Positions 11,057-13,080 of a stretch of 36,175 nucleotides of DNA are shown here, one piece after another (position 1 is the first letter of the stretch; the number at the start of each line of letters is the position of its first letter). The translations under genes and the position numbers were made by a program. The stretch spans positions 1-36,175 of the forward strand of contig DYOS01000023.1 of NCBI GenBank assembly GCA_020720405.1, given 5' to 3'. The notes beneath the pieces were generated by a model. That model did not search any database, was not told the DNA's origin, and saw nothing but the letters and a program-made list of their open reading frames with translations. The DNA is from Caldithrix sp. GTDB taxonomy: Bacteria; Calditrichota; Calditrichia; Calditrichales; Calditrichaceae.

Positions 11057-11476
11057 TTATGTCAGCCGGTGCCGGTTTACAAGTTCTGTTAACCAGTCAT
11101 TCATCTGGTCACGGAGTTCCCGGTAGGCGTTCTCCAATTCAAACTCATTGGTGGCATTCTTTCTCGGATCGTCAAATTCTTTATGAATCTTAGTAAAATT
11201 ACCATAAAAATTATCCAGTGCAGCACGGGCTTCCGGGGTGGTGGTTATGATTATATCAAATTTGGTGTGAATAAATTCTTTGAACGACTTCGGCCTGTAT
11301 GAGGTGATATCAATACCGATCTCCCGAAGTACTTTAATTACAGATTTATTCATTTCGGCTGGAGTAATACCGGCACTATGCACTTCGATCCGGTTAAAGG
11401 TGTTATTGGTAAGCAAAGCTGACATCATCTGGCTCAGCCCACCATTGGTTCGACCTAAAACAAGAACTTTCTTCAT
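11057..11476 (-). CDS. Low-molecular-weight phosphatase/ArsC-fold protein lacking the catalytic P-loop
   Basis: This 139-residue protein resembles low-molecular-weight tyrosine phosphatases and thioredoxin-linked arsenate reductases. It opens with a beta strand and loop (MKKVLVLGRTNGGLSQMMS), then HSAGITP, and later an FDDPRKNA segment with the general-acid-type Asp. The family needs a Cys-x5-Arg loop at the first turn; here Gly sits where the Cys should be and Leu where the Arg should be, so catalysis of the usual kind is not expected. The ATG at 11476 is preferred over an in-frame GTG at 11488 because GGAG lies six bases before it. The gene precedes the antiporter by 22 bases. It might sense or regulate rather than catalyse; that is inference. 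Confidence 0.7.
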   Translation of the reverse strand: MKKVLVLGRTNGGLSQMMSALLTNNTFNRIEVHSAGITPAEMNKSVIKVLREIGIDITSYRPKSFKEFIHTKFDIIITTTPEARAALDNFYGNFTKIHKEFDDPRKNATNEFELENAYRELRDQMNDWLTELVNRHRLT

Positions 11477-11494
11477 AACTGTCTCCACACTTGA

Positions 11495-11848: not shown

Positions 11849-11878
11849 TTGACATTTGTCAACAGGCTGTCTTATATT
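11849..11878 (+). promoter_or_regulatory. Promoter of the HicB-HicA-like gene, overlapped by a palindrome
   Basis: A consensus -35 TTGACA (11849-11854) is followed by an 18-base spacer and TATATT (11873-11878); reading the -10 as TTATAT gives 17. The -35 is the left half of the inverted repeat TTGACA-TT-TGTCAA (11849-11862), which is where an autoregulator could bind and block RNA polymerase. Operator function is inference from position and symmetry. Confidence 0.6.
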
Positions 11879-11910: not shown

Positions 11911-12354
11911 ATGAAAATACAGATAACAAAAAAATACGACGGTAAATACTATGTCGCGCTGTGCGACAATATTCCCGGATGCTATGTTCAAACCAATGAT
12001 GTAAATGAACTGGATGATTATCTTCGCCTGGCTATTGATCTGTACAGAAAGAGCTGCCTCAGCCGTAACCAGGAAATGCCCCTGGAAAATGATCATCCCG
12101 TTCTGCCAAAGAAAGTAATGTTTAATCACTATTCATCTTCTCAACTGGCCCAAATATTATCCCATGCCGGATTTCATGTTGAGTATGAGGACACACATTT
12201 TATTCTGATGCAAAATAATAATTACCCATTCGGCCGGGTTGTTTTTTCCCAGGCTGACTTTTTATCCCATTTGATTATCGAACGGATATTTGGTAAAAAA
12301 AACATCATCTATGATAATGAAGAAAAAATGCGTTACAATGTTTCCGCAGTCTGA
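11911..12354 (+). CDS. Probable HicB-HicA fusion protein (toxin-antitoxin-like)
   Basis: This 147-residue protein reads as two small domains in one chain. Residues 1-50 resemble the partial RNase H fold of HicB antitoxins, with the usual pattern of a two-strand opening, then the core CDNIPGCYVQTNDVNEL and a helix. Residues about 74-130 resemble HicA, a dsRBD-like mRNA interferase: SSQLAQILSHAGF, then EDTHFILM with His96 where HicA has its catalytic His, and a closing helix. In standard loci these are two genes. Here no stop or frameshift separates them. The gene is alone on the plus strand, with its own promoter and a palindrome over the -35. Its stop abuts the lptB stop directly. No clear Shine-Dalgarno site is seen. 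Toxicity is unproven, and the C-terminal match is weaker than the N-terminal one. Confidence 0.6.
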   Translation: MKIQITKKYDGKYYVALCDNIPGCYVQTNDVNELDDYLRLAIDLYRKSCLSRNQEMPLENDHPVLPKKVMFNHYSSSQLAQILSHAGFHVEYEDTHFILMQNNNYPFGRVVFSQADFLSHLIIERIFGKKNIIYDNEEKMRYNVSAV

Positions 12355-13080
12355 TCAGCGTTCGAGTTTAAATTTTTCCCCTAAATATAACCTTCTGGCC
12401 TCTTCATCTTCTGCTAAGTATTCTGCAGAGCCGGATTTTAAAATCTTGCCGTCGAATAACAAATAAGCCCGGTCGGTGATCGACAAGGTTTCATGGACAT
12501 TGTGATCTGTAATCAGCACACCAATACCGCGAGCTTTTAAGCCATGAACAATATTCTGAATATCCTCAACTGCAATCGGATCAACCCCGGCAAAAGGTTC
12601 ATCAAGAAGAATAAATTTTGGATTCATAACCAAAGTTCTGGCGATTTCAGTTCGTCTTCTTTCGCCGCCGGACAATTGATAACCTTTACTTTTTGCTATA
12701 TGGGTGATGTTTAGTTCACTCAGCAGCTGTTCGGTTTTCTCTTTCTGCAGCTTTTTGTGAAAACCGCGCATCTGCATAATAGCCAGTAAATTCTCCTCAA
12801 CACTGAGTTTTTGAAAAATTGAAGCTTCCTGCGGCAAGTAGGCAACGCCAAGCCTGGCCCTTTTATACATTGGCAATGAAGTCAAATCCTGTTCATCGAT
12901 GAGAATCCGACCCGAATTGGGACGGATCATACCGGTGATCATATAAAAGGAAGTTGTTTTCCCGGCCCCATTCGGACCCAACAGACCCACAATCTCCCCT
13001 TTGGAGACTTCCACAGAAACCCCTTTGACCACCATTCTTTTTCCATAAATTTTAATCAGATCTTTGCTTTGCAGTTTCAT
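12355..13080 (-). CDS. lptB: LPS export ABC transporter ATP-binding protein LptB
   Basis: This 241-residue ATPase powers extraction of LPS from the inner membrane with LptF, LptG and LptC. Walker A GPNGAGKTT is at 35-43, the Q-loop Gln at 84, the signature LSGGE at 136-140, Walker B ILLDEP at 157-162 and the switch His at 193. The sequence FAGVDPIAVEDIQ after Walker B is typical of LptB rather than other ABC ATPases. The ATG start is three bases after the lptA stop. It is the last gene of the Kdo/Lpt cluster. Its stop touches that of the convergent HicB-HicA-like gene and no hairpin terminator lies between them. Confidence 0.96.
   Translation of the reverse strand: MKLQSKDLIKIYGKRMVVKGVSVEVSKGEIVGLLGPNGAGKTTSFYMITGMIRPNSGRILIDEQDLTSLPMYKRARLGVAYLPQEASIFQKLSVEENLLAIMQMRGFHKKLQKEKTEQLLSELNITHIAKSKGYQLSGGERRRTEIARTLVMNPKFILLDEPFAGVDPIAVEDIQNIVHGLKARGIGVLITDHNVHETLSITDRAYLLFDGKILKSGSAEYLAEDEEARRLYLGEKFKLER

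Follow-up and report, generated by a model that had tools for sequence, protein, structure and literature searches.

Fused HicBA proteins, in which a small HicB without a DNA-binding domain precedes HicA on a single chain, have been described as Class 12 (Gerdes 2024, mBio, PMC10865869). In the Class 12 example MBI3260764.1, HicB and HicA occupy residues 12–60 and 74–127, respectively, and the class is presented as HicA-domain proteins from HicA database searches, with a proposed role in defence (PMC10865869). Among bicistronic loci, hicBA with a HicB lacking the DNA-binding domain is the commonest arrangement (PMC10865869), and the view that hicA usually comes first, taken in a preliminary description of the DNA analysed here, is outdated. 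Toxin-like and antitoxin-like domains also share one chain in CapRel-SJ46 and EzeT, as in the protein considered below, but these belong to unrelated families and their toxin domains are active (as described in PMC10865869). Residues required for HicA activity or toxicity include His28 in HicA3 of Y. pestis, His24 and Gly22 in the B. pseudomallei protein and His36 in that of S. pneumoniae (PMC11594946).

The window, by which is meant the whole 36,175-nucleotide stretch of Caldithrix sp. DNA that was analysed, encodes a single-chain protein of this layout. The following features of the locus could be distinguished.

11849–11878, + strand: promoter, TTGACA (11849–11854), 18-nt spacer and TATATT (11873–11878), from the pattern in homologues
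11911–12354, + strand: fused HicB-HicA-like gene, 147 amino acids, ATG start, stop codon included, from the list of open reading frames
11911–12075, + strand: HicB-like domain, residues 1–55, from predicted structure, a weak Pfam match and Foldseek
12076–12108, + strand: linker between both domains, residues 56–66, a loop in the model with pLDDT of about 91
12109–12315, + strand: predicted HicA-like (dsRBD-type) domain, residues 67–135, from structure, hhalign and Foldseek
12196–12198 and 12199–12201, + strand: codons of His96 and Phe97, placed by a gapless hhalign alignment and a MAFFT column tally
11057–11488, - strand: LMW-PTP/ArsC-like gene, divergent, a conserved neighbour (LMWPc E 3.4e-8; synteny)
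12355–13080, - strand: LptB-type ABC ATPase gene, convergent, the neighbour in most fused loci (ABC_tran; synteny)

In common with Class 12, a single gene encodes a small HicB followed by HicA, with near-identical domain boundaries. The fusion noted in the preliminary description is real, but its reversed order is not new in itself, being already known from Class 12 (PMC10865869). Unlike Class 12 as described, the Calditrichia family is without a Pfam HicA match and without the catalytic motifs, and belongs to the core genes of one class; the whole words His, histidine, catalytic and inactive were not found in the text of PMC10865869. Class 2 hicBA operons have the same gene order and sizes, are detected by the profile of the fused proteins and share their layout with the split homologues described below, but their HicA has the canonical GSH, PxH and KGTL motifs and their HicB is strongly acidic, features that are all lost in the Calditrichia family. 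Similarly, a predicted dsRBD-like fold and profile–profile homology link the family to HicA (PF07927/COG1724), while the PF07927 match and the catalytic Gly and His are missing. New are the dead active site and the missing match to the HicA model, together with vertical inheritance throughout the class and the survival of a split counterpart.

The sample comprised 40 genomes of the class Calditrichia, in which f1 to f6 are our labels for families and g6 and g12 for genera. Both flanking genes in the window lie on the - strand and the fused gene alone on the + strand, and its isolation among oppositely oriented neighbours could be confirmed. The fused gene and lptB end in directly adjoining stop codons, with no spacer (window 12352–12357), and in several relatives the 3' ends of the two genes apparently overlap by a few bases. 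Beyond the lptB-like gene lie LptA/LptD-N-like, LptC-like and SIS/CBS (KdsD-type) genes. The phosphate-binding loop of the LMW-PTP/ArsC-like neighbour (VLGRTNGGLS) is without the first catalytic Cys. When this loop was compared among relatives (L054–L057, L060, L061, L065, L066, L068, L071 and L072), the Cys was also gone in most, with L071 of family f4 keeping CNGNSARS. Judged by its loop, the neighbour appears to be a second pseudo-enzyme beside the dead HicBA. A scan of the fused locus against Rfam gave no match.

The AlphaFold2 model of the full protein (mean pLDDT 89.6; pTM 0.82) has the topology b-b-b-a followed by b-a-b-b-b-a-b. Its HicB-like domain, with strands at residues 5–9, 14–18 and 24–28 and a helix at 31–51, is predicted to form a truncated RNase-H-like b-b-b-a fold without a DNA-binding domain. 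HicB-type chains (6g26_A/B, 6u0i, 2dsy; prob up to 0.99) ranked top in a Foldseek search with the whole model, those of 6g26 and 6u0i at 0.96–0.99, with weak E-values of 0.05 or more overall. The Pfam model HicB_lk_antitox (PF15919) matches the window protein weakly (E 0.082; 13.5 bits against a cut-off of 27) and is matched by 7/18 homologues (best E 2.3e-4), while the cut-off is surpassed by one split HicB, from G031 (27.9 bits). The N-terminal HicB-like domain first proposed from the reading frame alone is thus upheld by the modelled fold and the Foldseek matches, the Pfam signal being weak.

The C-terminal half escapes the family models. PF07927 (HicA) matches neither the window protein, nor its C-terminal half, nor any of 18 homologues; scans with Pfam, NCBIfam, PADLOC and PHROGs never found HicA and found HicB weakly, and the family profile, run against PDB sequences, returned just spurious TPR and ABC matches. 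By contrast, hhalign aligned this half with the canonical HicA profile over 56 gapless columns (E 1.3e-8); profile searches thus recovered HicB weakly, and HicA by profile–profile comparison but not by Pfam. In such comparisons the split homologues bridge the fused C-terminal half and canonical HicA. Furthermore, the full-length 18-sequence profile picks up neighbouring canonical genes for HicB and HicA, its halves matching them in the right order. For example, at G006:C75, where hicA matches PF07927 at E 4.9e-17, the fused profile matches hicB at 8.2e-8 and hicA at 2.2e-4. Pairs of hicBA genes from other phyla are also found with it, and GSH (or GGH), PxH and KGT(L/F) are present in most of them.

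In the model the HicA half keeps an a-b-b-b-a core, for which a dsRBD/HicA-like fold is predicted. The C-domain was modelled less confidently alone (76.6), which would be in keeping with packing between the halves. Searched alone with Foldseek, it retrieved the HicA chains 5yrz_B (prob 0.99, target TM 0.68), 6g26_F (0.75) and 1whz (0.66) at weak E-values (0.1–1.1), and the HicA chains are those of its matches that cover the target well. Target TM-scores for 5yrz_B, 6g26_E/F and 1whz ranged from 0.61 to 0.75, and VOC-type (bleomycin-resistance) folds were also among the Foldseek matches. The profile–profile match, the recovery of hicBA pairs by the two-domain profile and the predicted fold support HicA ancestry of this half, and the C-terminal HicA-like domain of the preliminary description stands, despite the silence of PF07927.

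The active site has been lost. In both the hhalign and MAFFT alignments, Thr95-His96-Phe97 of the window protein lie opposite the Gly-Ser-His of HicA, with His96 facing Ser and Phe97 facing the catalytic His. His96, earlier taken for a retained catalytic-type histidine, is thus one residue out of register, and it is found in just one other of the 20 fused homologues. A shifted catalytic His was considered and rejected, the alignments being gapless through the motif and the residue unconserved. The catalytic column is occupied by Ser (12), Phe (3), His (3), Val (1) and Leu (1) among the 20 fused homologues, and by Val (7) and Ile (3) among ten split homologues, with His in 0/10 of the latter as against 5/5 canonical HicA proteins. 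The three His residues occur in genomes of a single genus, g12 (L002, L003 and L005). The Gly of the GSH motif is kept in 1/20 fused homologues and the PxH His in 0/20, while KGTL is replaced, such that the Gly and His of GSH, the PxH His and KGTL are absent from the window protein and nearly all of its homologues.

The fused protein occurs in 20/40 class genomes, that of the window included, as one copy each in uninterrupted full-length frames, and the homologues share 27–45 % identity across the class. The fusion is conserved, as had been a point for checking. A profile match was obtained in 33/40 class genomes and 22/23 of those of good quality, counts that include a few canonical pairs. 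The fused gene is missing from some good-quality genomes, such as G006 (98 % complete, with a canonical pair only), and is therefore not strictly essential. Alignment-based scanning of genome contigs recovered 12 named relatives, a single-sequence scan of the same kind none. All but one of the named relatives are Calditrichia/Calditrichota MAGs; the remaining one, L064, is labelled as a Caldisericaceae bacterium, has a g6-type fused protein and neighbourhood and is probably a mislabelled Calditrichia bin. A search of 345 other genomes, from outside the phylum, gave no fused frame free of interruption, and viral contigs and plasmids yielded no relatives. Canonical hicA genes are sporadic, 17/39 relatives including G000 having them; in that same genome they lie elsewhere, at C49:18817-18966 and C117:151-252, the second being a partial match.

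Families f3, f5 and f6 instead encode two adjacent genes, hicB-like and then hicA-like, without the catalytic His, although several f6 genomes have neither form. The position of the linker (residues 56–66) coincides with the gene boundary in the split homologues. The split genes usually adjoin a trmJ-like gene and often a hybrid histidine kinase gene. In L021, L022, L023, L100, L102, L103 and L107 they form part of a conserved block, in which the pair lies on the opposite strand beside the trmJ-like methyltransferase gene, with a hybrid histidine kinase/receiver gene and often an HDOD gene.

The RpoB tree comprises two deep clades, one with the fused gene (f1, f2 and f4) and one in which the genes are split or absent (f3, f5 and f6). 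In the tree of HicA domains, fused proteins group together (100/98), as do split proteins (91/95), and both clades are set apart from canonical HicA at 94/89, a value that carries a long-branch warning. The fused gene lies beside lptB in f1, f2 and f4 genomes. It has been relocated in genus g6 (L062–L064 and L067), where genes for a histidine kinase and for an NtrC-type regulator precede it, all on one strand, and in G001 (L069). An lptB-linked function, which was also considered, is weakened by these relocated copies. Because of its conserved lptB locus, single copy and agreement with the RpoB tree, the fused gene is a vertically inherited core gene and not a mobile toxin-antitoxin locus. The mobile, patchy occurrence that is a type II toxin-antitoxin trait was not observed, as the gene is single-copy, sits at the lptB locus, has an RpoB-like history and is without viral or plasmid relatives. 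Since the sister clade has separate adjacent genes, the event of fusion (or fission) can be placed inside a single class. Most simply, the common ancestor would have had a dead hicB-hicA pair, whose genes were later fused in one of the clades; the alternative, a fission in the second clade, is possible.

That the gene has its own promoter, as the preliminary description held, could be confirmed. A sigma70-like pattern, TTGA[CT]-N13-21-TATATT, occurs 57–80 nt 5' of the start in 16/18 homologues, as against a mean of 0.17 and a maximum of 2 in 300 shuffles of Markov-shuffled upstream sequence. In the window the -35 box is covered by a perfect inverted repeat, TTGACA-TT-TGTCAA (11849–11862). A role for this palindrome as an operator was rejected, since upstream regions of homologues have the promoter without it.

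Both halves of the protein are strongly constrained by purifying selection. In the close pair L002/L005, dN and dS are 0.009 and 0.24, respectively (NG86); the pair L010/L013 was left out on account of an unaligned start artefact. Given the class-wide full-length homologues, with 27–45 % identity, and the low dN relative to dS, 11911–12354 is not a chance open reading frame. The charge of the halves has shifted. The mean net charge of the HicB half is +0.7 in fused and +3.7 in split proteins, as compared to -6.5 in canonical HicB (n=20, same group), and that of the HicA half is +5.0 and +2, respectively, as compared to +8.6 in canonical HicA (n=21). The HicA half remains basic, and the disappearance of the HicB acidity fits a HicB half that no longer has to mask a basic RNase. 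With a pI of 6.3 the window protein is an exception, most homologues lying at 8–10.

The fused protein is best explained not as a toxin-antitoxin module but as a HicBA descendant that has been domesticated and is no longer toxic. It would probably bind RNA or have a regulatory role, and we consider this account a probable one. In an ancestor of the Calditrichia the HicA partner would have lost its catalytic residues, with the pair turning into an ordinary core gene pair, whose two genes would then have fused in the f1/f2/f4 clade and stayed separate in the f3/f5/f6 clade. The HicA half may have kept its dsRBD-like fold and bind instead of cleaving, with RNA as the most likely, though not the only conceivable, ligand. 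The HicB half, with no RNase left to mask, would be packed against its HicA partner in a structural or binding role, and the sigma70-type promoter would express the whole as a small RNA-binding or regulatory protein. The pI of the window protein, the g12 histidines, the absences from good-quality genomes, the weak Foldseek E-values with VOC folds among the matches, and the 94/89 support all count against this explanation. More tentatively, an RNA-binding regulator without catalytic activity, now widely kept, may have arisen from a toxin-antitoxin pair across the whole class, with the split-dead and fused stages both extant.

The main rival is a protein-protein role without RNA binding, for example as an accessory to two-component signalling. 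The split pairs between trmJ-like and hybrid kinase/receiver genes in f3 and several f5 genomes speak for such a role, as does the g6 gene, which shares its strand with the kinase gene and NtrC-type regulator gene that precede it. However, the split pairs and the kinase gene lie on different strands, and in most fused genomes, including that of the window, the flanking genes are those for lpt and LMW-PTP functions with no adjoining kinase, which renders this role unlikely.

A functional single-chain toxin-antitoxin of the Class 12 kind, in which the HicB half restrains an RNase-active HicA half until a trigger such as phage infection, must be regarded as decidedly improbable. The domain order, sizes and boundaries are those of Class 12 HicBA and His stands in the catalytic column of three homologues, but the window protein, like nearly all of its homologues, lacks the Gly and His required according to the literature, the acidity of the HicB half is gone, and a core gene in a housekeeping locus, without relatives in viral contigs or plasmids, is not an accessory one. 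The self-inhibited toxin suggested in the preliminary description is likewise unsupported, with the GSH Gly and His, the PxH His and KGTL gone from a vertically inherited core gene, while the other suggestion made there, a new RNA-binding regulator, may hold.

Still less probable is an immunity decoy, in which the dead chain would bind HicA or HicB of its own or invading canonical loci and neutralise or titrate them. Canonical hicA occurs sporadically in 17/39 relatives, G000 among them, and the fold appears from the model to be retained, but the fused gene is also kept in many genomes where canonical HicA went undetected (such as G002, G003, G007, G009, G015 and G017), and the acidity of canonical HicBs has been lost. 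A decaying relic without function, to which the loss of the catalytic motifs might point, is already contradicted and scarcely credible. Decay was rejected on the dN/dS comparison, dN being low against dS in each half; in addition, the frames are full-length and uninterrupted in 20 genomes and the promoter is conserved.

Discussion of toxin-antitoxin pairs usually centres on mobile, active toxins. The Calditrichia family represents the opposite end of their evolution, in which the toxic chemistry is lost, inheritance is vertical, and the two genes are merged in one clade and unmerged in its sister clade. It warns against inferring a toxin from a HicA-like fold or from an apparent His, and allows a direct test of what remains of a harmless, retained toxin-antitoxin pair. 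If the reading of the fused protein as an RNA-binding regulator is true, the family would constitute a traceable domestication of a toxin-antitoxin pair into a post-transcriptional regulator.
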